A DNA stretch of 64,000 bases from Nocardioides ginsengisegetis (GTDB lineage Bacteria; Actinomycetota; Actinomycetes; Propionibacteriales; Nocardioidaceae): contig NZ_JACGXA010000001.1 of assembly GCF_014138045.1 (NCBI RefSeq), forward strand, positions 2,899,001 through 2,963,000, read 5' to 3'. How positions within the stretch are numbered: position 1 is the first letter of the stretch; the number at the start of each line of letters is the position of its first letter. The position numbers were made by a program, and so were the translations under genes. The notes under the pieces were generated by a model. That model worked only from the letters and a program-made list of their open reading frames with translations, was not told the origin of the DNA and ran no database searches. This document shows positions 5,036 to 53,839 of the stretch, one piece after another.

Positions 5036-5061
5036 GGCACCACCTCCTCACAGGTGGTGCC
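5036..5061 (-). terminator. Rho-independent terminator, mainly for the minus strand
   Basis: A perfect 10-bp stem, GGCACCACCT (5036-5045) with AGGTGGTGCC (5052-5061), and a 6-base loop. On the minus strand it is followed directly by a run of six T, the classic intrinsic terminator layout. It would end transcription of the secreted-protein gene whose stop is about 220 bases upstream, leaving a long structured 3' region. On the plus strand there is no T-run. Confidence 0.75.
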
Positions 5062-5102
5062 CTTGCGCAGTTGGACCGTTCTGTTGCCCTAGGGTGAGAC
5101 AG

Positions 5103-5218
5103 GCGGTCCGGACCATTCTCGCGCAGCGGCGAACAGAGAATGGCCCGGACCGCGTCTGTGTGTCCCGACTTTGTTGCTTCAGTTGTAGCTAGGGGGTTGC
5201 GGGAGCAGCGCCCCCTGG
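5103..5218 (-). other. Conserved structured 3' region, copy A
   Basis: Two hairpins. The first pairs 5103-5120 with 5136-5153 (18 bp, one mismatch) around a 15-base loop ending GGCGAACA. The second pairs AGGGGG (5191-5196) with CCCCCT (5211-5216) around a loop containing GCGGGAGCAG. The same arrangement occurs at 17555-17667, where stem bases have changed on both sides while the loops stay nearly identical. That is the sign of selection on RNA structure. It lies in the 3' region of the gene ending at 5280; which strand acts is inferred from that position. Confidence 0.6.
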
Positions 5219-5227
5219 GGAGCAAGC

Positions 5228-5256
5228 CCCGGGACAGTCACTCCGACTGTCCCGGG
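5228..5256 (-). terminator. Hairpin directly after the stop of the large secreted-protein gene
   Basis: A perfect 12-bp stem, CCCGGGACAGTC (5228-5239) with GACTGTCCCGGG (5245-5256), loop of 5 bases, about 25 bases past the stop codon. Near-identical hairpins follow the other two family genes at 14709-14743 and 17675-17709. It lacks a T-run, so it may stabilise the mRNA end rather than terminate. Confidence 0.6.
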
Positions 5257-5279: not shown

Positions 5280-8200
5280 TCACTTGACCGCAACAGTCGC
5301 GGTCTTCGCAGCCTTGTTGGTCGACGTGGCCGAAACGGTGGCGTAGTAGAAGTTCTTCTTGTCACCGTTCAGGTCAGCACGCTTGAAGATCGCCTTGCCG
5401 TCGGCGCCCAGCACCTTGGACTTGACGCGCTTGGCAACGCCGTTCTTGACCCGGTAGAGCTTGACAACCGCGTCAGCGCCAGCCTTGCCAGCGTTGACCG
5501 TGATCCTGTCGTAGCCTGCGATCGAGTCGCTGGCCGGGACGTGCTTGGTGAAGATACCCGGGTGGATCGCGACCGGGTCGGCGTTCTTGAAGGAAACCGT
5601 GTCGGTCTTCTCGCCCTGCGGGATGAGGTCACCGGTCGGCGCAGAGTTCTGGCCGTCCTGCTCACGAAGCGTGGCGGTGATCGTCGCGGTGCCAGCCTTG
5701 GCGCCCTGGAAGACGTAGGTCGTCTCGCCCTGCTGGTTGGTGGTGCCGTACGAGTTGCCGTCACCGTCCTGCAGGTCGTCCGGACCGGTGCGGTAGAACG
5801 TCACGTCGAAGCCGGAGAGCGGCTCGCCGTTCTGGTCCACAGCCTTGTAGGTCTCGGTCACCGTGGTGCCAACCGGCTGCGTGTCCGCACCCGTGTGGGT
5901 CAGCGTGTACGTCGAGGCCGCGTAGTCGATCGAGTACCAGTGAACCGTCTCCGACTTGCCGGAGAGGGTCTTCGTACCCGTCTTGCGAACCGCGTCGAAC
6001 TTCGGCGTGGCCGGAACGGCGTCATCCCACGTGTTCGTCGGAGCGTTGTTCCACGTGCCCGTGATGGTCTGGTCGCCGGCAGCGGTAGCAGACAGCTCCA
6101 GGGCCGCGTCCTCGTTCTTCAGCTGCGAAGAAACCGAGGCAGGGTCGTTGTTGTTCCAGTGCGCGGCGGGGGCGTCGTCGCTGATGGCCAGCGGGACACC
6201 ATCCACGAGGTTGCCGAACTGGTCGGTCGCGAACAGGTTGTAGTTCACCGACTCGCTCGTGGGCGCCTTCGGCAGAACCGTGACGGTCTGCGTGTCGTCG
6301 CGCTCGATCTTGACCTCGCCACCGTTCAGCGGGCCCTCGGTCGCGGGCGTGTAGGCGTTGCCAGCGTCGGTGCCGTCGATGCCGTTGGTGAAGTCGACGT
6401 CGAACGTCTTGGTGACGTTGCCGGCCTTCACGGTCACGGTCGCGGTAACGGTGCTGGACGTGTCGAACGCCGCGTCCTTCTCGATAGCGGACACGATGCC
6501 CGTGGTGCCGTCGTCAGCGGTGGTCAGCGTCTGGGAAGCACCCAGGTCCTTCCACTCGCCGAACAGGCCACCCTGAGCGGGCGCCGGGTCGGCAACCAGG
6601 TCGGCCTCGGTCTCAGCGTTGGGGCTGAAGAAACCGTGGTCAACCGTGACGGTCACCGGGTAGTCGGTCAGCGTGACGCCGTCCGAGTTCTTGACGGTGA
6701 TGTCGAGGTCGACGGGGCGTCCGGGAGTGGACGCGTCGTCGATCAGGTTGGCACCGCTGATGGTGATGTCAGCCGCGGAGGTGGGGTTGGCGTTCTTCAG
6801 CCAGTCGATCTGCAGGCTGTCACCCGGGGCGTTGTCGGCGGGGGGCGTGTTGCTCGCCCCGGCGTCGGCAGCGTCACCCGAGGTGGCGGCGTCCAGGTCG
6901 GCGTTGAGCTCGTTCGGCTGAACGGTCTCGCTCGGGTCGGTCAGCGACACGGTGACAACACCATCAGCGTCGGAGACGTCCTTGGCCGAGTTGTTGCTGA
7001 TCCGGGTCGTACCGGCCGGCTGCGTGGCCGAGACGATCGAGTCACCAACGCCCGCGGGAGCGGTCTCGGTGCCCGGGGCGTAGTCGAACGTGATCTCGCG
7101 GCCGCCAAGAGGAGTCTTGTCCTCGAGACGCAGGATCCCGTCGAACGACTTCGTGGAACCGGCGGGCGCCTGAGCGACAGAGCCATCCTTGAAGACGATG
7201 GTGGCGTTACCCATCTTGACCGCCAGCGGAGCCGACTGGAGGTCGCCCGCGGTCTGGCCCGGGTTTCCGTCCTTCTCGACGTAGGTGTTCAGCGTGTAGA
7301 CGCCGGGCACACCGCCGGTGGGCGCGGGGACGGTCGCCTTGCCGTCAGCACCGGTGGCAGCCGTGGAGCCGCTACCTGCGGTCTGCGAGTCGCCACCCGC
7401 GAACGGAACGACAGTCCAGGCGTACTGGACAACCTGACCGGCCTTGGGGGCACCCTGGTTGTCCTTGACCGTGATCGTGACCGGGCTGGCCGCGTACTCG
7501 CCGAAGTCGAGCGCGTTGCCGAGCTCCGAGGGGTTCGCCGTGATGGCGGCCGCAGTGTCGGAGTAGGTCTGAACGGTAACGGACCGCTGGAAGTCCTTGG
7601 CGGCCTGGTAGCCGTCCTCGTCATCCACGTTCACCGTGTAGGTGTAGGTGTTGCCGTCGGCGTCGCCGGCGACGGTGAAGACAGCCTGACCGAGAGCGTT
7701 GGTGTACTCCGTTGCGCCGCCAGTCTGGACAACCTCAGCACCAGCGACAGCCTTGCCGTTCTGGTCGAGCACGGTGACCGTGACGTCAGTGTTCGGGTTG
7801 CTGTTCGGCGGGGCCGGGTTTGCCGCGGTGGCGGTGACCGTGGTGATGGTCTGCTTGTAGACCGTCACACCCTCGTTGTCGTCCGTGTCAGCGTTCGCCT
7901 GGACGACGGCCTGGTCGACCTTGGGGTCGGTGGTGTCGTAGGGGTAGTGCGCGCCGGCCGTGCGGTCGAAGTTGACGATGCCGCTGAAGGTGCGGATGCC
8001 GTTCGCCGGCTTGCCGTACACGCCACCGTTTGCAGCGTTGACCGTCTGCGGGTCGTTGAGACCGTCCTGACGGTCCTGGACCGTGACGTCGTTCGTCAGC
8101 TCGGAGGTCGTACCCGAGATGACACCGAAGTCACCGGTGTGACCGGTGTAGGGCGCCTGGAAGATACCAACGGCAGAACCGGGAGCGTTGGAGATGTCGA

Positions 8201-8654
8201 TGGTGGTCGCGTTCGCGTCCACGATGCCCGAGGCGGTGTCGTCGCCACCCGCAGTGGGGATCTCGCCGCCGGCGTTGTTGAGGGGCTGCGCCGTCACGTT
8301 GACGAGCACACCGTAGAGGTTGACCGGCGGGGTCCACTCGGTCGAGAACACGCCATCGGTGCGCGACACGGTCGCAATCACGACGGGAGTCACGGGGTTG
8401 AGGGGCGAGGTGTACTCGAAGCGCACCTGGGCGACGGAGGCGCCACCGCTGGCCACGAGGTGGACCGAGGTGTTTGCACCGTCGTTGCGGACGCCGAACG
8501 GGGCCTCCGTGTAGAGGGTCGAGTCGGTCGGGGCCGTGAACTGGTCCGTCATCGCGTCGGCCGAGGCCGAGCCGGCGAGCAACGGGAGACCCGTCACTGC
8601 CATAGCGGAAATGGCGGTAGCCGCCAGTCCCCGCTTCATGCCGCTGCTGATCAT
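5280..8654 (-). CDS. Large secreted Ig-like repeat protein with family C-terminal domain
   Basis: An 1124-residue exported protein. The signal peptide covers about residues 1-32 (GLAATAISAMAVTGLPLL, then GSASA). The mature part is a string of beta-rich modules of the bacterial Ig-like/invasin (Big_1) kind. Recognisable cores are TVTVLDQNGKAVAGAEV near 288, VTITVKDNQGAPKAGQVV near 395, LFATDQFGNLVDGVPLAI near 810 and YKAVDQNGEPLSGFDVTF near 935. The last 95 residues, from IHPGIF near 1029, form a lysine-rich domain shared with the products of 14764-17229 and 17730-19472. There is no LPXTG signal. The ATG at 8654 follows GGAAGGA. A surface adhesin or matrix protein is a reasonable inference; the ligand is unknown. 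Confidence 0.8.
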   Translation of the reverse strand: MISSGMKRGLAATAISAMAVTGLPLLAGSASADAMTDQFTAPTDSTLYTEAPFGVRNDGANTSVHLVASGGASVAQVRFEYTSPLNPVTPVVIATVSRTDGVFSTEWTPPVNLYGVLVNVTAQPLNNAGGEIPTAGGDDTASGIVDANATTIDISNAPGSAVGIFQAPYTGHTGDFGVISGTTSELTNDVTVQDRQDGLNDPQTVNAANGGVYGKPANGIRTFSGIVNFDRTAGAHYPYDTTDPKVDQAVVQANADTDDNEGVTVYKQTITTVTATAANPAPPNSNPNTDVTVTVLDQNGKAVAGAEVVQTGGATEYTNALGQAVFTVAGDADGNTYTYTVNVDDEDGYQAAKDFQRSVTVQTYSDTAAAITANPSELGNALDFGEYAASPVTITVKDNQGAPKAGQVVQYAWTVVPFAGGDSQTAGSGSTAATGADGKATVPAPTGGVPGVYTLNTYVEKDGNPGQTAGDLQSAPLAVKMGNATIVFKDGSVAQAPAGSTKSFDGILRLEDKTPLGGREITFDYAPGTETAPAGVGDSIVSATQPAGTTRISNNSAKDVSDADGVVTVSLTDPSETVQPNELNADLDAATSGDAADAGASNTPPADNAPGDSLQIDWLKNANPTSAADITISGANLIDDASTPGRPVDLDITVKNSDGVTLTDYPVTVTVDHGFFSPNAETEADLVADPAPAQGGLFGEWKDLGASQTLTTADDGTTGIVSAIEKDAAFDTSSTVTATVTVKAGNVTKTFDVDFTNGIDGTDAGNAYTPATEGPLNGGEVKIERDDTQTVTVLPKAPTSESVNYNLFATDQFGNLVDGVPLAISDDAPAAHWNNNDPASVSSQLKNEDAALELSATAAGDQTITGTWNNAPTNTWDDAVPATPKFDAVRKTGTKTLSGKSETVHWYSIDYAASTYTLTHTGADTQPVGTTVTETYKAVDQNGEPLSGFDVTFYRTGPDDLQDGDGNSYGTTNQQGETTYVFQGAKAGTATITATLREQDGQNSAPTGDLIPQGEKTDTVSFKNADPVAIHPGIFTKHVPASDSIAGYDRITVNAGKAGADAVVKLYRVKNGVAKRVKSKVLGADGKAIFKRADLNGDKKNFYYATVSATSTNKAAKTATVAVK

Positions 8655-8783
8655 GCTGATTCCTTCCGGAGTGAATATCGGGAGGGAGTCCCCCGCCCGA
8701 CAGGCCTTCCCGAGAGAGGAGGCCCACGTGTGACACCCGGACGCTGATCCCGAGTGCAGGGCAGACGCTAGGGCGGGTCTGCC

Positions 8784-8814
8784 AAAGTGACCGTTGTTGT
8801 TGCAGGTCACATTT
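8784..8814. promoter_or_regulatory. Inverted repeat between divergent genes
   Basis: GTGACC (8787-8792) and GGTCAC (8805-8810) form an inverted repeat with a 12-base spacer, flanked by AAA on the left and, one base further out, TTT on the right. It sits between the large secreted-protein gene (start 8654, minus) and the HTH-protein gene (start 8884, plus). The spacing of about one and a half helical turns suits a dimeric regulator; the adjacent HTH protein is the obvious candidate. Confidence 0.45.
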
Positions 8815-8883
8815 GTTTCTGCAATAAATAGGGCCGGGGGCCGGACGTCCGGCATACGAACATGACTCAGGCGGGGGCCACGA

Positions 8884-10518
8884 GTGAGTGACACGAGCGC
8901 GGCTGCGCCTGTACAGGCGCGCAAGCGAGGCCGGCCGCAGCGGCTGCCGGAGGATCCGAGCCCGATGGGCTCGACCACGATCGGCTGCGACCAGCGCATC
9001 GCTTGGCTGCTCACCTCGGCGCGCCTGCTCAACCCCGACCCCGAGCTCGCCCGCCGCGACGGCTTCATCAAGGCGCTGGCCGACCAGGGCATCAAGATCG
9101 ACAACTCCCGCATCTCCCGCTGGGAGTCCGGCCTGCACCCGGTGTCGGGGCAGGTGGCGGCGACGTACGAGCAGGCGCTGGGGCTCACCGAGGGCTCGCT
9201 GGTGGCGGTGGCGGCGGGACTGCGGCGTACGTTCGGCAACGGGCCCGCGCCCCGCGAGGGTGCGCTGCGCGGCGCCGACCTCACCGACGGCGACATGGAC
9301 CGCCTGCTCGAGCTCATCGACGAGGGCAAGGGGACGGGCGCGCACTGGCTGCGGCTGGTGGGCCAGTTGGGCACCTACGACCGCGTCTACCTGCGCCAGC
9401 AGGAGTGGGCCGCGCTGTCGGCCCGGCTCGTGCAGGAGCTGGCGGTGTCGGTGGGCGTCGGTTTCGTACGGCGCTATGAGGCCGCTGCGGGCCTGATCCG
9501 GCACCCCAACGCGCAGCGCCACCTGACCCGCGCCATCGGCGGGTTCGTGATGAACCCCGACACCCAGGTCGTCGCGCCGGTGCTCAGCCTGCTCACCGAG
9601 ATCGCCGACGAGGCCGCCGGCGACCTCGTGCTGCGGATGCTGACGTCGGAGGACAAGAACCTCCGCAGCGCCGCCTCGTCGGTGGCGGCCGTGAAGGTGT
9701 CGCGCGGGCACTTCGGTGCCCACGCCCTCCCCCAGCTCGAGAGCCACGTGGTCGGCAGCCTGCGCCGCGGTGAGTCGCTCGACGGCCGCCTCGACTCCTT
9801 CGACCTCGCGGTGCAGCTCCCCGACGAGTCGTGGGAGCGGGCGATGGGCGGCCTGCGCAACCGGCGCGCCTTCGATCTCGTGATCGGCTCCCGCAGGGGC
9901 GGCGAGCTGGTGCCGACGCAGCAGACCGCGGCCGTGGTGCAGCGGCTCTCCGCCGCGGTCCAGCGCGACACCCCGACCCACAGCCCTCACGAGAACGACG
10001 CGATGCTGCGCCGCCTGCTCCGCGAGTCGCTGCTCCACGCCCACAAGCCGCGCCGGCACCACGCGGCACTGCTGCTCGCGGCCACGCCGTACGCCCCCGC
10101 CGTGGCCAAGCACTGCCAGGACCTCGCCACCCACAGCAACGACCTGATGGCCGCGCGGGCGCTGACCGTGCTGATGCGGGTCGGGCACCGGATGGGGCGC
10201 TCGCGGGTGCTGCTGCAGTCGCTCGCCGAGACCCGGCCGACGATTCGCGCGCGGGCGCTGGTCAACCTCGGCCTCAACCCCGAGCCGATCAAGCCCGCCG
10301 AGGCGGACGCGCTGCTGGGGCACCTCGACGAGCACTCGCGGCCGGTGGAGCGGCACGCCACGATGTTCGCGCTCGGGATGAACGGCGGCACGACGCTGAA
10401 GAAGCTCGCCAAGAGCGACACCGAGTGGATGGCACGCAGCGCGACGTGGTGGCTCGACCAGGGGCCGGCCCTGCACGACAGCGACGCAGCCCTTGACCAG
10501 ATCGGCGCCCAGACGTAG
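8884..10518 (+). CDS. HTH-domain protein with long alpha-helical C-terminal region
   Basis: A 544-residue protein from a GTG at 8884. Residues about 30-110 form a Cro/C1-like helix-turn-helix (LADQGIKIDNSRISRWESGL holds the recognition helix, RISRWE). The following 430 residues are almost entirely helical, with leucine- and alanine-rich pairs of helices in places resembling HEAT/ARM repeats (for example RARALVNLGLNPEPIKPAEA). There is no recognised ligand domain and no membrane segment. It is divergent from the large secreted-protein gene, with an inverted repeat in the shared upstream region, so it may control that gene, itself, or both. This is inference. Confidence 0.75.
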   Translation: MSDTSAAAPVQARKRGRPQRLPEDPSPMGSTTIGCDQRIAWLLTSARLLNPDPELARRDGFIKALADQGIKIDNSRISRWESGLHPVSGQVAATYEQALGLTEGSLVAVAAGLRRTFGNGPAPREGALRGADLTDGDMDRLLELIDEGKGTGAHWLRLVGQLGTYDRVYLRQQEWAALSARLVQELAVSVGVGFVRRYEAAAGLIRHPNAQRHLTRAIGGFVMNPDTQVVAPVLSLLTEIADEAAGDLVLRMLTSEDKNLRSAASSVAAVKVSRGHFGAHALPQLESHVVGSLRRGESLDGRLDSFDLAVQLPDESWERAMGGLRNRRAFDLVIGSRRGGELVPTQQTAAVVQRLSAAVQRDTPTHSPHENDAMLRRLLRESLLHAHKPRRHHAALLLAATPYAPAVAKHCQDLATHSNDLMAARALTVLMRVGHRMGRSRVLLQSLAETRPTIRARALVNLGLNPEPIKPAEADALLGHLDEHSRPVERHATMFALGMNGGTTLKKLAKSDTEWMARSATWWLDQGPALHDSDAALDQIGAQT

Positions 10519-14708: not shown

Positions 14709-14743
14709 GGGCCCGGGGCAGTCACTTCGACTGTCCCGGGCCC
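14709..14743 (-). terminator. Hairpin after the Calx-beta secreted-protein gene
   Basis: A 15-bp stem pairs 14709-14723 with 14729-14743 (one G-T wobble or mismatch) around a 5-base loop, 20 bases past the stop at 14764. It matches the hairpins at 5228-5256 and 17675-17709 in sequence and position. The remaining gap down to the flavoprotein start at 14599 shows nothing else I can name. Confidence 0.6.
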
Positions 14744-14763: not shown

Positions 14764-17229
14764 TCAGCGAACCTCTGCGGTGCGCGTGACACCACGCAGG
14801 TTGGTGTCGGTAGCCGTCACCACTGCGTAGTAGAAGTTCTTCTTGTCCCCGTTGAGGTCGGCACGCTTGAACTTCGCCTTGCCGTCTTCGCCGAGCACCT
14901 TCGACTTGACGCGCTTGGCGACGCCGTCCTTGACGCGGTAGAGCTTGACCATGGCGTCAGCGCCCGCGTTGGAGCTGTTGACGGTGATCAGGTCGTAGCC
15001 GTCGATCGAGTCGGTCGCAGGCACGTGCTCAGCCTGGATGCCCGGGTGAATCACGGCCGGGTTGGTCGGGCCGGGCGCCTCGTCGTCGTTGACGATCGTG
15101 CCGGTGGCGGAGCCGTCGGTCACCGTGCCGTAGCCGGCAGGCGTCACCGTCACGGTCAGGGTCTCGTCGGACTCCTCGACCGTGTCGGAGAGAACCGGGA
15201 CATCGATGTGACCAGTGGTCTGTCCCGCCGGGATGGTCAGGTCACCCGAGGTGGCCGTGTAGTCGCTGCCGGCCTTGGCAGTGCCGTCCGACGTGGCGTA
15301 GTGCACCGTCACTGCCTGCGAGGACGGGTTCGCCACGGTCACCGGGAACGACAGCGTGGCTCCGCTGTTGCCCTCCGACACCTGGGCGTCACCGACCGAC
15401 ACGGCCGGCTCAGCATCGTCGTTCGTGATGGTGCCGGTCGCGGAGTCGTCACCCAGGGTCCCGTAGCCGGGAGACGTGAGCGTCACGGTCAGGGTCTCGT
15501 CGGGCTCGTTGACCGTGTCGGAGAGGACCGGGACGTCGATGTGACCGGTGGTCTGACCAGCCGGGATCGTGAGGTCACCCGAGGTGGCCGTGTAGTCGCT
15601 GCCGGCCTTGGCGGTGCCGTCCGTGGTGGCGTAGTGCACCGTCACGGGCTGCGAGGACGGGTTGGCGACCGTCACCGGGAACGTCAGCGTGGCGCCGGCG
15701 TTGCCCTCCGAGACCTGGGCGTCACCGATGGAGACGGAGGGCTCGGTGGTGCCGCCACCGCCGCCACCGCCGCCGGCCGGAGTCGGCTCCAGGTCGAACT
15801 CCTTGCCGGAGTTCACGGAGCCGGTGGCCGCGTCGACCTTGCTGATCTTGATGTCGTCGAGGAAGTACTCGCCGTCCATCTGCGCGGACGAGCCGGCACC
15901 GCCGACGATGAAGGCGAGGCCGCCGTCGACCTGGCTGCGGTCAGCCGCGTCCTCGTTCTTCACGATGGTGGCGTCGGGGTGGGCCACGACGTAGTCCTCG
16001 AGCGTGATGCTCTGCTGAGCCTGGTCGCCGTTGACGCCCCAGACGCCGTTGGCGGCGTCCCACGTCTGCCAGGTGCTCTGCGCCGGCGCGCCGTTGTTGG
16101 CGGGGTAGAAGAACAGCGAGGCGTCCGTGGTGCCGTTGCCGTCGTTGTCGACGGAGAGGCGCAGGTAGGCCGGCTGCTGCGGGGTGTTGTTGCCGGTGTT
16201 GGCCCGCGAGTAGGTCGAGTAGGTGAGGGTGCGCAGGTCGCGGACCAGGGTGCCGTCGTACTGCTCGGTGCGGAACAGCTCGACCCGGTCGGGGTTGTCC
16301 GCCGTGCTCAGCGACATCTTGAGGCTGCCGGTGCCCTTGGGCGGAGTGCCCGGCCCGGTGACGAACTGCTGGTCGGACGTCAGGTAGACGGCGTCGTCGT
16401 AGGCCTGGTGGGCCCAGCCCTGGGGGTGGGTCGGGTCGACGGTGAGCTGCGTGGTGCCGCCGTCGGTCTCGGCGTTGGGGCCGAAGTCGAACAGGGTGTC
16501 CTGGCCGTTCTTGCCGACGATGACGCGGTCGACGAAGTACTCGCCGTTGGTCATCGTGTTGGCAGCACCAGAAATCAGCGAGACCGCGCCGCCGTCGTGG
16601 TTGATGTCGAACCGGTTGTTGACCAGGATCGCGGCAGTGTGGGCCGCGTGGTAGTCAGCCAGGCTGATCTCGCCGGTGCCGGAGTCGCCGTCCACGTTCA
16701 TCAGCCCGTCCACGACGTTCCAGTTCTGCCACTCGCCGTTGACGACGGGCTGCTGGGACGGGTTGTTTCCGGGGAAGAAGAACAGGCTGTGCCTGTCGCC
16801 TGTCGTGGCGGCGTTGCCGTCGTCGTCGACGGTGAGGCGCAAGTAGGTGGGCTGGCGGTCGGCGCCGCCGGACGTGCTGCGCGCGAACGTGGAGTACTCC
16901 AGGCGCGTGATGTCGCCCAGGTTGGTGTTGTCGTAGTCGTCGGTGCGGTAGAGCTCGGTCTGCACGTCGTACTGACCGATGGTCATCTTGTGGCTGCCCG
17001 TGCCGTACGGCGCGTGCTGCGGGCCGGTCACGTCCGACTGCTCCGGGACGGTGTAGTCGCCGGTGGGCGTGTCCTCGTAGGCCTGGGTGTACCAGTGGGC
17101 ACCATCGCGGACGATGATGGGCGCCGGCGCGGGCCCCGGGTTGGCGTGGGCACCGGTCGTGCCGATCCCGACAATGAGCATGGACCCGACAGCAAGCATG
17201 CTGATGCGGCCCCCGTGAGCTAGAGACAT
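14764..17229 (-). CDS. Secreted modular protein with two Calx-beta domains and family C-terminal domain
   Basis: An 821-residue exported protein. Signal peptide about 1-29 (ISMLAVGSMLIVGIGTTG, then AHA). Two related modules follow at about 32-255 and 260-485; each has a tyrosine-rich start (HWYTQAYED, HQAYDDAVY), a LYRT or LFRT motif, LRLTVD or LRLSVD, FFPGNN or FYPANN, and ends GEYFVDRVIVG or GEYFLDDIKIS. An eight-glycine linker leads to two Calx-beta domains (496-606 and 607-717), which commonly bind calcium in extracellular matrix proteins. Residues about 723-821 are the shared family C-terminal domain. The ATG at 17229 follows AGGGG. Its closest relative is the gene at 17730-19472, which lacks the Calx-beta pair. 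Confidence 0.8.
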   Translation of the reverse strand: MSLAHGGRISMLAVGSMLIVGIGTTGAHANPGPAPAPIIVRDGAHWYTQAYEDTPTGDYTVPEQSDVTGPQHAPYGTGSHKMTIGQYDVQTELYRTDDYDNTNLGDITRLEYSTFARSTSGGADRQPTYLRLTVDDDGNAATTGDRHSLFFFPGNNPSQQPVVNGEWQNWNVVDGLMNVDGDSGTGEISLADYHAAHTAAILVNNRFDINHDGGAVSLISGAANTMTNGEYFVDRVIVGKNGQDTLFDFGPNAETDGGTTQLTVDPTHPQGWAHQAYDDAVYLTSDQQFVTGPGTPPKGTGSLKMSLSTADNPDRVELFRTEQYDGTLVRDLRTLTYSTYSRANTGNNTPQQPAYLRLSVDNDGNGTTDASLFFYPANNGAPAQSTWQTWDAANGVWGVNGDQAQQSITLEDYVVAHPDATIVKNEDAADRSQVDGGLAFIVGGAGSSAQMDGEYFLDDIKISKVDAATGSVNSGKEFDLEPTPAGGGGGGGGTTEPSVSIGDAQVSEGNAGATLTFPVTVANPSSQPVTVHYATTDGTAKAGSDYTATSGDLTIPAGQTTGHIDVPVLSDTVNEPDETLTVTLTSPGYGTLGDDSATGTITNDDAEPAVSVGDAQVSEGNSGATLSFPVTVANPSSQAVTVHYATSDGTAKAGSDYTATSGDLTIPAGQTTGHIDVPVLSDTVEESDETLTVTVTPAGYGTVTDGSATGTIVNDDEAPGPTNPAVIHPGIQAEHVPATDSIDGYDLITVNSSNAGADAMVKLYRVKDGVAKRVKSKVLGEDGKAKFKRADLNGDKKNFYYAVVTATDTNLRGVTRTAEVR
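15079..15744 (-). repeat. Tandem 333-bp repeat encoding the two Calx-beta domains
   Basis: Two direct copies of exactly 333 bases (15412-15744 and 15079-15411) each encode 111 residues. Long stretches are near identical at DNA level, for example the part encoding DGTAKAGSDYTATSGDLTI in both. The copies are in frame and end to end, which points to a recent duplication. The sister gene has no such segment at the same place. Confidence 0.85.
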
Positions 17230-17430
17230 CTTTTCCCCTGTGTATGTGTGTGCACGGAAAATGGCATCAGGCTGCACACACGTACCCGAGACCCCCGGTT
17301 TGAGAAATCACCCCCCGGCCCTCGCGACAGTAGTTGCCCGCGTCCACTATTCCGAGACTTCTTGTGACATTTCCGGGCGCAGGACCACCTCAGGCGTAAG
17401 AAACACCCCTCCGGGTGAGACCAGACCGAT
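17230..17430 (-). promoter_or_regulatory. Conserved upstream region of the secreted-protein gene
   Basis: Two blocks resemble the region upstream of the sister gene at 17730-19472: 17246-17310 (like 19492-19555) close to the start, and 17368-17410 (like 19616-19657) about 140-180 bases upstream. The distal block holds a small CACCC/GGGTG hairpin that on the minus strand is followed by TTTCTT. Conservation outside coding sequence suggests a shared promoter or leader; no -10/-35 pair is clear enough to name. Confidence 0.45.
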
Positions 17431-17457: not shown

Positions 17458-17514
17458 GGGCTGGCGCGCCAGCCCAGAAAATGCCACAGAGCGCCACCCG
17501 GCAAGGTGGCGCTC
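17458..17514 (-). terminator. Two hairpins ending the 17730-19472 transcript
   Basis: Stem GAGCGCCACC (17489-17498) with GGTGGCGCTC (17505-17514), loop of 6 bases, is perfect. On the minus strand it is followed by TGTGGCATTTTC and then an 18-base perfect palindrome (17458-17475). Its place about 215 bases past the stop mirrors the terminator at 5036-5061 of the first family gene, so it probably ends this transcript. Confidence 0.55.
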
Positions 17515-17554: not shown

Positions 17555-17667
17555 GCGGTGCGGGCCGTTCCCGCGCTGCGGCGAACAGAGAACGGCCCGC
17601 ACCGCGTCTGGGTGTCCCGACTTCTTGCTTCAGCTGTGACCAGGGGATCGCGGGAGCAGTCCCCTGG
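17555..17667 (-). other. Conserved structured 3' region, copy B
   Basis: Stem 17555-17572 pairs with 17588-17605 (18 bp, one mismatch) around a 15-base loop that differs at one position from copy A at 5121-5135. A second stem pairs 17640-17647 with 17660-17667 around a loop with GCGGGAGCAG, also as in copy A. Paired changes relative to copy A include CG to GC and AT to GC in the first stem and GC to AT in the second. It lies past the stop of the gene ending at 17730. Confidence 0.6.
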
Positions 17668-17674
17668 GGGAGCC

Positions 17675-17709
17675 GGTCCCGGGACAGTCACTGGGACTGC
17701 CCCGGGACC
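17675..17709 (-). terminator. Hairpin directly after the 17730-19472 gene
   Basis: A 15-bp stem, 17675-17689 with 17695-17709, contains one A-C mismatch and a 5-base loop. It is about 20 bases past the stop and is the third member of the hairpin set at 5228-5256 and 14709-14743. There is no T-run. Confidence 0.6.
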
Positions 17710-17729: not shown

Positions 17730-19472
17730 TCACTTGACGGCGATGGTGGCCGTGCGACCCTTCAGGTTGGTGGCGGTCTCCGACACCTTGGCGAAGTAGT
17801 AGTTCTTCTCGCTGCCGTTCAGGTCGGCACGCTTGAAGATCACCTTGCCGTCGGCGCCGAGCACCTTCGACTTGACCTTCTTCGCCACGCCGTCCTTCAC
17901 GCGGTAGAGCGACACCACGGCGTCCGCACCGGCGGAACCAGCGTTGACCGTGATCCGGTCATAGCCGGCGATCGAGTCGCTCGCGGGCACGTGCACAGCC
18001 TTGATGGCCGGGTGGACGACAACCGGCGGGGTCGTCGCAGTCGGCTCGAGGTCGAACGCCTTGCCGGAGTCGACGGAGCCGCTGGCCGCGTCGACCTTGC
18101 TGATCGTGATGTCGTCGAGGAAGTACTCGCCGTTCATCTGGGTGGCCGCACCGGCACCGCCGACGATGAACGCAACGCCGCCGTCGACCTGGCTGGTGTC
18201 AGACGTGTCCTCGTTCTTGACGATGGTCGCGTCGGGGTGGGCCACGGCGTACTGGTTGAGCGTGATGCTCTGCTGCGCGTCGTCACCGTTGACGCCCCAG
18301 ACGCCGGTGCCGGCGTGCCAGGCCTGCCAGGTGCTCTGCTCGACGGCCCCGTTGTTGGCCGGGTAGTAGAAGAGCGAGGCGTCCGTGGTGCCGTCGCCGT
18401 CGTTGTCGACGGAGAGGCGCAGGTAGGCCGGCTGCTGCGGGGTGGCGTTGCCCTGGTTGGCCCGCGAGTACGTCGAGTAGTCGATGGTGCGCAGGTCGCG
18501 GACCAGGGTGCCGTCGTACTGCTCCGTGCGGAACAGCTCGACGCGGCCCGCGTTGTCGGCCGTGCTCAGCGACATCTTCAGGCTGCCGTCGCCGACGGGC
18601 GGGGTGCCCGGCCCGGCGACGAACTGCTGGTCGGAGCTCAGGTAGTTCGCGTCGTCGTAGGCCTGACTGTGCCAGCCCTGCGCGTGGCCGGGGTCGACGG
18701 TGAGCTGCGACGTGCCGCCGTCGGTCTCGGCGTTGGGGCCGAAGTCGAACAGGGTGTCCTGGTGGTCGTTGCCGACGATGACGCGGTCGACGAAGTACTC
18801 ACCGCGGGTCATCGTGTTGGAGTCACCGGAGATCAGCGAGACCGCGCCGCCGTCGTGGCCGGCGTCGAACCGGTTGTTGGCGAGCACGGCGTTGGGGTGG
18901 GCCGCGGCGTAGGCCGCGAGGCTGATCTGACCGGCGCCGGAGTCACCGTCGACGTTCATCAGACCGTCGGTGACGTTCCAGTCCTGCCACACGCCGTTGA
19001 CGACGGTCCCGTTGTTGGCCGGGAAGAAGAAGAGGCTGGTGTCGGCGCCGCCGGTGCCGTCGCTGTCGACGGTGAGGCGCAGGTACGTCGGCTGGCGGTC
19101 GGCGCCGCCGGCCGTCGTGGTGCGCGCGAACGTGGAGTACTCGAGCCGGGTGAGGTTGCCCAGGTTGACGCCGTCGTAGAGGTCCGTGCGGTAGAGCTCG
19201 GTCTGCACCTCGAACTGGCCGACGGCCATCTGGTGGCTGCCGGTGCCGAACGACGCGCGCTGCGGACCGGTGACGTCGGACTGCTCCGGGACGGTGTAGG
19301 CGCCGTTGGTGGTGTCCTCGTACGCCTGCGTGTACCAGTCGGCGCCGTGGCGGACGACCATGGAATCGGGGCTGGGAGTGCCGTCCGCGAAAGCGCCGGT
19401 CGCCCCGATCCCCACGATGAGCAATGAACCGACAGCAAGCATGCTGATGCGGGCCCCATGAATGTTGAACAT
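17730..19472 (-). CDS. Secreted modular protein with family C-terminal domain
   Basis: A 580-residue exported protein. Signal peptide about 1-30 (ISMLAVGSLLIVGIGATG, then AFA). It has two related modules at about 35-255 and 260-475 with the same landmarks as the product of 14764-17229 (DWYTQAYED, LYRTDLYDG, FFFPANN, GEYFVDRVIVG; then SQAYDDANY, LFRTEQYDG, FYYPANN, GEYFLDDITIS). The family C-terminal domain follows at about 483-580 (VHPAIKAVHVPASDSIAGYD to the end). The two genes are closely similar along their length except for the Calx-beta insertion, so one is a duplicate of the other. The start at 19472 follows a purine-rich AGAGAGAAAA. Cell-surface location is inferred; no anchoring motif is visible. 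Confidence 0.8.
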   Translation of the reverse strand: MFNIHGARISMLAVGSLLIVGIGATGAFADGTPSPDSMVVRHGADWYTQAYEDTTNGAYTVPEQSDVTGPQRASFGTGSHQMAVGQFEVQTELYRTDLYDGVNLGNLTRLEYSTFARTTTAGGADRQPTYLRLTVDSDGTGGADTSLFFFPANNGTVVNGVWQDWNVTDGLMNVDGDSGAGQISLAAYAAAHPNAVLANNRFDAGHDGGAVSLISGDSNTMTRGEYFVDRVIVGNDHQDTLFDFGPNAETDGGTSQLTVDPGHAQGWHSQAYDDANYLSSDQQFVAGPGTPPVGDGSLKMSLSTADNAGRVELFRTEQYDGTLVRDLRTIDYSTYSRANQGNATPQQPAYLRLSVDNDGDGTTDASLFYYPANNGAVEQSTWQAWHAGTGVWGVNGDDAQQSITLNQYAVAHPDATIVKNEDTSDTSQVDGGVAFIVGGAGAATQMNGEYFLDDITISKVDAASGSVDSGKAFDLEPTATTPPVVVHPAIKAVHVPASDSIAGYDRITVNAGSAGADAVVSLYRVKDGVAKKVKSKVLGADGKVIFKRADLNGSEKNYYFAKVSETATNLKGRTATIAVK

Positions 19473-19660
19473 GTATTTTCTCTCTGAGATGAGTGTGCGC
19501 ACAGAAAAGTGCCATCGGAGTCGCACCCGCACCCGATGACCCCCGCGTTGAGTCCCCATCCCGCGGTCTAGACAAGGTTAAGGGCCCAGACCGCCGGCCC
19601 CGACCACATGCAGGCCATTTCCGCGCGAAAACCTCCCCCAACCGAAAAATCACCCCTTGG
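19473..19660 (-). promoter_or_regulatory. Conserved upstream region of the second sister gene
   Basis: It carries the counterparts of the two blocks described for 17230-17430 at nearly the same distances from the start (19492-19555 and 19616-19657). The distal block contains CACCCC/GGGGTG (centred near 19656), which on the minus strand is followed by ATTTTT, so it could also end transcription coming from the thioesterase gene. The remainder up to 19733 holds only a 10-base direct repeat at 19721-19740. Confidence 0.45.
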
Positions 19661-53709: not shown

Positions 53710-53839
53710 GTTGGTTCTTCTCCTTCACCGGCAGGTACGTGCCGGACGATCCGTAGTGAAGTGACGCGCCTCACACTAGGGGTTGGCGCGGGATGGGCCT
53801 AGGCCCGTCTCGACAGCGGGCACCTCCCGTCCTGACGGG

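Follow-up and report, generated by a model that had tools for sequence, protein, structure and literature searches.

The locus analysed here raises the question of what a conserved RNA hairpin does behind the stop codon of a secreted-protein gene. The window, a stretch of 64,000 nucleotides from Nocardioides ginsengisegetis, contains two regions for which an original prediction had proposed a structured 3′ RNA, with three candidate functions: a stability element, a small RNA released from the 3′ end, or a protein-binding site. These proposals proved not specific enough, and the property to which our analyses point, complementarity between the hairpin loop and the start codons of the same gene, was not among them.

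Both copies are present where they were predicted, past the gene stops at 5103-5218 and 17555-17667. Because they follow the stops of minus-strand open reading frames (5280-9374 and 17730-19559), the RNA is that of the minus strand; the loops of the two copies agree in the way that had been described, and the strand quoted in the prediction was the plus strand. Read from the stop codon on the minus strand, copy 1 consists of hairpin H1, hairpin H2, a linker that ends in a 17-nt flank, hairpin H3, a 19-nt flank, a spacer and hairpin H4. H1 (5228-5256) lies right after the stop codon and has GGAGUGA in its loop region, and H2 (5191-5216) carries UCCC in its loop and is kept mainly in near relatives. 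The core hairpin, H3 (5103-5153), has an 18-bp stem with one G-U pair and a 15-nt loop, in which the octamer GCCGCUGC occupies 5123-5130; it scores 110.3 bits with R1, our covariance model of the H3 core, which was built from 31 copies. Its conserved flanks lie at 5154-5170 (5′) and 5084-5102 (3′). H4 (5036-5061) resembles an intrinsic terminator and is followed by a T run (5035-5030), and with H1 it accounts for the post-stop hairpin and outer terminator of the prediction. In copy 2, also on the minus strand, we identified H1 (17676-17708), H2 (17641-17666), H3 (17555-17605) with its loop altered to GCCGCAGC, and an H4-like hairpin (17491-17512).

The gene preceding copy 1 (5280-8654, minus strand; the listed open reading frame reaches 9374) encodes a secreted beta-repeat protein with Big_1 domains and probably starts at the ATG at 8654. 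The gene preceding copy 2 (17730-19472, minus strand) has its likely ATG at 19472. A DNA search of the same genome found three places: the two copies, and H1 alone (14711-14741, minus strand) behind a third gene. This gene (14764-17277, minus strand) encodes Calx-beta domains and the same C-terminal domain, and has kept H1, with neither H3 nor the start site described below. The mycothiol gene mshB lies near the H3 locus in this genome.

The folding energies of the two copies correspond to z-scores of -6.3 and -7.3, and none of 200 dinucleotide shuffles was as low. The two-sided stem changes that had been claimed are seen in the pairwise alignment, with C-G replaced by G-C and A-U by G-C in the first stem and G-C by A-U in the second. 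Of the two hairpins proposed as conserved, only H3 is so on a wide scale; the H2 loop is kept only in the closest relatives and in some other genomes. Covariation among H3 copies supports selection on an RNA fold, which was also part of the prediction. We collected 55 copies (50 distinct), in which several stem pairs change on both sides, with pair types that include G-C/A-U, U-A/C-G/A-U, C-G/G-C/U-A and A-U/U-A/G-C, and distant copies bear compensatory changes. In an alignment not fitted to the structure (A2), 5 of 22 H3 pairs have two-sided changes, where shuffling gives 1.4 on average and none of 500 shuffles reaches the observed number; the number of further pair types in this alignment was not striking, as 42 of 500 shuffles were as high. 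Under a tree-based null, applied to the right-strand rows of an alignment that had been fitted to the structure (A6), covariation at E<0.05 is seen for 6 of 22 pairs, and for one pair in the all-pairs test. For 29 of 38 distinct H3 stems, the sense strand also gives the stabler fold (Wilcoxon p 0.0003, relatedness ignored), and the 105 nt upstream of H3 have no such bias (16 versus 21). The constant parts of the hairpin are the stem pairs CG, GC, CG, GC and GC together with most of the loop G[C/U]CGCUG. The U run of an intrinsic terminator was not seen after H3 in the 31 copies inspected by eye.

Covariance-model searches of related genomes recovered many further copies. R1 matched 44 of 215 Nocardioides genomes, and a plain DNA search matched 39 of 215. 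Two of the R1 matches (G085 and G129) resemble, by eye, coding DNA without the loop and were dropped, leaving H3 in 42 of the 215 genomes. The family scan matched 40 of 294 genomes in 5 of 26 genera (36 genomes in Nocardioides, one in each of four other genera), and the order scan 30 of 391 genomes, two of them outside the family; both tallies still contain the two dropped genomes. These last two, from another family (G463 and G486), were rejected as chance, one being a terminator-like hairpin without the loop and the other a match inside a reading frame. Because the scans scored 11 to 20 candidates per genome under stricter filters, they may have missed weak copies. An exact-pattern search of named genomes returned 18 stretches, all from Nocardioides, N. 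kribbensis DSM 16314 (L154) among them. H3 does not behave as a REP-like or mobile repeat, being found at a single place in 38 of the 42 genomes and having no match in viral contigs or in plasmid and phage collections.

The motif had been described as matching nothing known, and no Rfam family matches H3. At the gathering score, the only Rfam match in the window is an msiK RNA (RF01747) at 53714-53772 on the minus strand (60.4 bits), away from H3. In five relatives, two Rfam matches were found at E<=1, both below gathering; one of them, Acido-Lenti-1 in the UTR of locus L036 (21.1 bits against 37, E 0.47), lies outside H3 on the opposite strand and was taken as a chance match. In the open-licence literature on Nocardioides and RNA regulation, no title among the matches listed concerned such an RNA. 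We conclude that the H3 RNA is real, conserved and structured, and absent from the sources searched.

As predicted, the element lies downstream of genes and is not a riboswitch preceding one: for 52 of the 55 copies, the stop codon of a surface-type gene lies at most about 190 nt ahead. The next downstream gene, assigned by a guess from codon composition, is convergent in 29 cases, in the same direction in 25 and absent in one. Since the next gene has either orientation, H3 goes with the gene that precedes it. Its principal partner is a secreted protein, whose length is in most cases about 1,050-1,130 residues and which often has Big_1 domains. The predicted association with genes that share a C-terminal domain was confirmed for 47 of the 52 upstream open reading frames; the other 5 end in a coiled coil (assigned by eye; 33 C-terminal sequences were aligned). 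All five coiled-coil genes have the start site, so the C-terminal domain is not the determinant. A Pfam search named no family in this C-terminal part of the N. ginsengisegetis proteins, and structure prediction gave a weak, mainly beta model of this domain (mean pLDDT 61.6). Three of the 55 copies are outside the upstream-gene and start counts. One (L089:6364) sits some 470 nt after a surface gene. The others are H3-like hairpins, with gene labels given by eye from the protein ends: L083:3577-3667 (minus strand) follows a HEAT-like gene near a surface-protein gene and has the hexamer TANNNT at 6 nt, and L088:4454-4505 (minus strand) follows a cyclase-like gene with a surface-protein gene nearby.

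Inspection of the sequences revealed that the loop G[C/U]CGCUGC is complementary to nucleotides +8 to +15 (codons 3-5, GCAGCGGC) of the same gene, a relationship noticed only at that stage. The sequence GCAGCGGC is the reverse complement of loop GCCGCUGC, and loop GUCGCUGC pairs with it through one G-U. For copy 1, the start site is at 8640-8647 on the minus strand. The usual start of the partner gene is ATG AAC AGC AGC GGC ATC AAG (MNSSGIK). The start is known for 47 of the element-bearing genes; loop and start match at all eight positions in 45 of these, 42 of them with Watson-Crick pairs throughout; the two exceptions are the truncated gene L087:8806 (6/8) and L089:6716 (7/8). At L095, where the locus begins just before the ATG, the site is at +8. 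No start was read for five of the 52 upstream genes (L004, L082, L084, L085 and L096), of which L004, the gene of copy 2, was considered separately from the 47. The complement of the loop was absent upstream of the ATG in 9 starts, the actual site being downstream of it. We predict that the site is moderately open, with unpaired probabilities of 0.11-0.60 in 18 genes.

The start pattern itself tracks the hairpin. It occurs in 36 of 209 genomes, 35 of which carry H3, and the contig of the 36th ends 39 nt past the pattern. Seven of the 42 H3 genomes lack the exact pattern (G073, G081, G141, G182, G197, G223 and G228), and CAGCGGC is retained in their starts despite neighbouring differences, except in the truncated gene of G141. 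Within the family, paralogues included, 48 of 53 starts have GCAGCGGC among their first 24 nt, compared with a single one of 1199 24-nt windows taken further along these genes; CAGCGGC occurs near 1 of 39 starts in the window that have a Shine-Dalgarno sequence and an ATG. Of 48 unrelated genes, 3 reach at least 7 Watson-Crick loop-start pairs and 7 reach at least 8 pairs when a single G-U is allowed, so a single gene proves nothing. The counts are also not independent, because the species are related. The weight of the case rests on conservation and on synonymous constraint.

That constraint is strongest for serine. In 44 element-bearing starts, every serine within codons 1-6 is encoded by AGC (89/89), whereas AGC accounts for 11 of 168 serines in codons 7-40 and for 158 of 578 in codons 41-200. 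Glycine in codons 1-6 is always GGC (43/43), and at codon 9 it is GGA in 20, GGT in 9, GGG in 8 and GGC in 4; the glycine evidence is weak because GGC is the commonest codon elsewhere too (581/799 in codons 41-200). The arginine of codon 8 is also rather constant (CGG in 37/41). The octamer is kept where the residues have changed, to MTRSG (L083 and L098) or MNRSG (L202), and where codons have been inserted, with sites at +11 and +14.

Several genomes contain paralogues without a strong R1 match. Three of these (L158b, L163 and L166) have a short hairpin with an unrelated stem, the loop GUCGCUGC and a retained start site. In L173, there is a match of 9 Watson-Crick pairs in which both partners differ from the usual pair at one position, and the loop base at the changed position can also join the stem; L159 has the site, with a loop that matches in a shifted register. 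Loop and site are both missing from L156a, L156b, L162, L164 and L165, and likewise from L157, whose start (L157/L205) is less certain. The loop is present and the site absent in L171/L217, L172/L218 and the truncated L087:8806, while L161/L177 has the near-site GCAGCGGG and no loop. Taken together, 63 family genes scored by hand (the 47, the copy 2 gene, the third N. ginsengisegetis gene and 14 paralogues) comprise 50 with both loop and site, 9 with neither, 3 with the loop only and 1 with the site only (Fisher p 9e-8, relatedness not corrected for). None of the 14 paralogues passes a strict automatic loop-start test; at least 8 pairs are found under a looser test in L158b, L159, L163, L166 and L173, and in L161 away from the conserved site. 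The starts of L160 and L167-L170 were not found or fetched, and these genes are outside the table; L160 has the loop in a 14-bp hairpin. The 3′ ends of L160 (genome G090) and L171-L173 have hairpins of 14-19 bp that differ in sequence and share the loop motif GCCGCUG. Copy 2 of N. ginsengisegetis fits this pattern: the gene to which the C-terminal segment and UTR belong has a different start, which has no complementary site, and the loop is mutated.

A second complementarity concerns H1. Its loop region GGAGUGA (5238-5244, minus strand) is complementary to UCACUCC in the leader (8668-8674, minus strand), upstream of the Shine-Dalgarno sequence, and under the looser test this match, not that of H3, is the longest for copy 1. 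The H1-leader match, scored as GAGUGA together with UCACUC, is present in 8 of 35 genes (L017-L024, near relatives), discordant in 2 and lacking on both sides in 25. Sequence comparison makes it a possible second contact between tail and leader.

Based on these sequence comparisons, we propose that H3 is a cis-encoded 3′ UTR element whose loop pairs with the start codons of its own gene and controls translation, a reading that we regard as reasonably probable. The long stem would display the loop for pairing with coding positions +8 to +15, which fall within the initiation footprint. Pairing might hinder initiation within the region that the 30S subunit must occupy, and the paired tail and start could form an RNase III substrate. 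The two mRNA ends would meet in the cell, within one molecule or between molecules, and lower translation would provide feedback on the mRNA itself. A 3′ fragment, if released, might in addition target tandem paralogues in which the site is retained.

Pairing with the start explains neither the invariant stem letters and flanks nor the opposite-strand motif TANNNT. In 33 of 55 copies (24 of the 46 distinct flanks), this hexamer ends 6-8 nt short of the stem on the plus strand, and the 70-nt flanks, one of which is shortened by a contig end, contain it nowhere else; in copy 1 it is TAGGGT (5090-5095, plus strand), 7 nt from the H3 stem. It looks like a -10 box that would place a transcription start at the base of H3. 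Alternatively, then, three RNAs may form a switch, in which the tail loop binds the start and an antisense RNA initiated at TANNNT serves as a decoy that frees it. The decoy loop would be identical to the start site, and one near-palindromic hairpin would keep tail, start and decoy in step. On what the sequences offer, we regard such a switch as possible, though unlikely.

Conservation around H3 bears on a further explanation, that H3 is a site for an RNA-binding protein, a decay barrier or a processing element, with its start complementarity incidental or meant for another RNA. In 15 species, mean identity is 100% in the 5′ flank, 99.5% in H3 and 95% in the 3′ flank, and falls to 61% in the remaining upstream UTR and 51% in the DNA beyond. 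The near-invariance of the two flanks (5154-5170 and 5084-5102) in these species is left unexplained by start pairing. The stem letters CGG/CCG and both flanks are conserved beyond what display of a loop needs, which speaks for this explanation, and the 7-nt matches in 3 of 48 unrelated genes indicate that such complementarity can arise incidentally. However, this explanation fails to predict the exclusive use of AGC for the serines of the site, the survival of the site under amino-acid change, or the joint absence of loop and site in paralogues, and we consider it improbable.

We find it doubtful that the active RNA is a plus-strand antisense small RNA started by TANNNT at the base of H3. The fixed position of the hexamer argues for this, but the sense strand folds better in most distinct stems, the hexamer is absent from 22 of 55 copies (copy 2 included; one absence is a contig end), and no -35 box or U-run terminator was seen by eye on the plus strand. 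Moreover, the antisense loop equals the start site and is not its complement. Still less probable is a 3′ UTR-derived small RNA that acts mainly in trans on unrelated targets. The strong conservation of the flanks would suit such an RNA, and there are precedents, such as s-SodF of Streptomyces coelicolor, which is derived from the sodF 3′ UTR (PMC3919588) and, in the account given in PMC9438474, targets sodN; like s-SodF, the H3 RNA is an actinobacterial 3′ UTR RNA, but s-SodF targets a different gene. In the N. ginsengisegetis genome, however, AGGA-ATG-GCAGCGGC has 5 matches, one of which is the surface gene itself, against 12 for the reversed control, and H3 keeps to a single gene family and, in 38 of 42 genomes, to a single place. 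Finally, that these are ordinary terminator or stability hairpins copied along with a C-terminal coding segment is highly improbable: H1 and H4 look terminator-like and the C-terminal 110 residues before the two N. ginsengisegetis copies are 69% identical, but H3 is 99.5% identical across the 15 species where the last 330 nt of the upstream coding sequence average 47% (protein 30%), a pattern that disfavours such copying, and H3 is kept after genes with coiled-coil C-termini.

Pairing between the H3 loop and the start of its own mRNA, the reading that we prefer, has a parallel in icaR of Staphylococcus aureus. As described in PMC3868564 and PMC5502269, the icaR 3′ UTR motif UCCCCUG base-pairs with the Shine-Dalgarno region of the mRNA that carries it, which hampers initiation and yields an RNase III substrate; PMC3868564 terms the case a singular example. 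Like the icaR motif, that of H3 lies in a 3′ UTR and complements the start region of its own mRNA. Unlike the icaR motif, it would be directed at codons 3-5 and not at the Shine-Dalgarno sequence, and it is a long covarying hairpin of the Nocardioidaceae with a synonymously constrained target. OppZ and CarZ of Vibrio cholerae are described in PMC9438474 as autoregulatory small RNAs derived from 3′ UTRs, OppZ being released by RNase E, dependent on Hfq and active within an operon; our proposal similarly has an RNA from the 3′ end of an mRNA act on its own transcript.

Pairing between tail and start in bacterial mRNAs rests on few examples, and we know of no case with covariation across a genus. 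Because loop and target are fixed in dozens of species, with synonymous constraint, the proposal is testable by comparative and simple mutational work. If it is true, the large secreted proteins of the Nocardioidaceae would have a structured regulatory RNA of their own.
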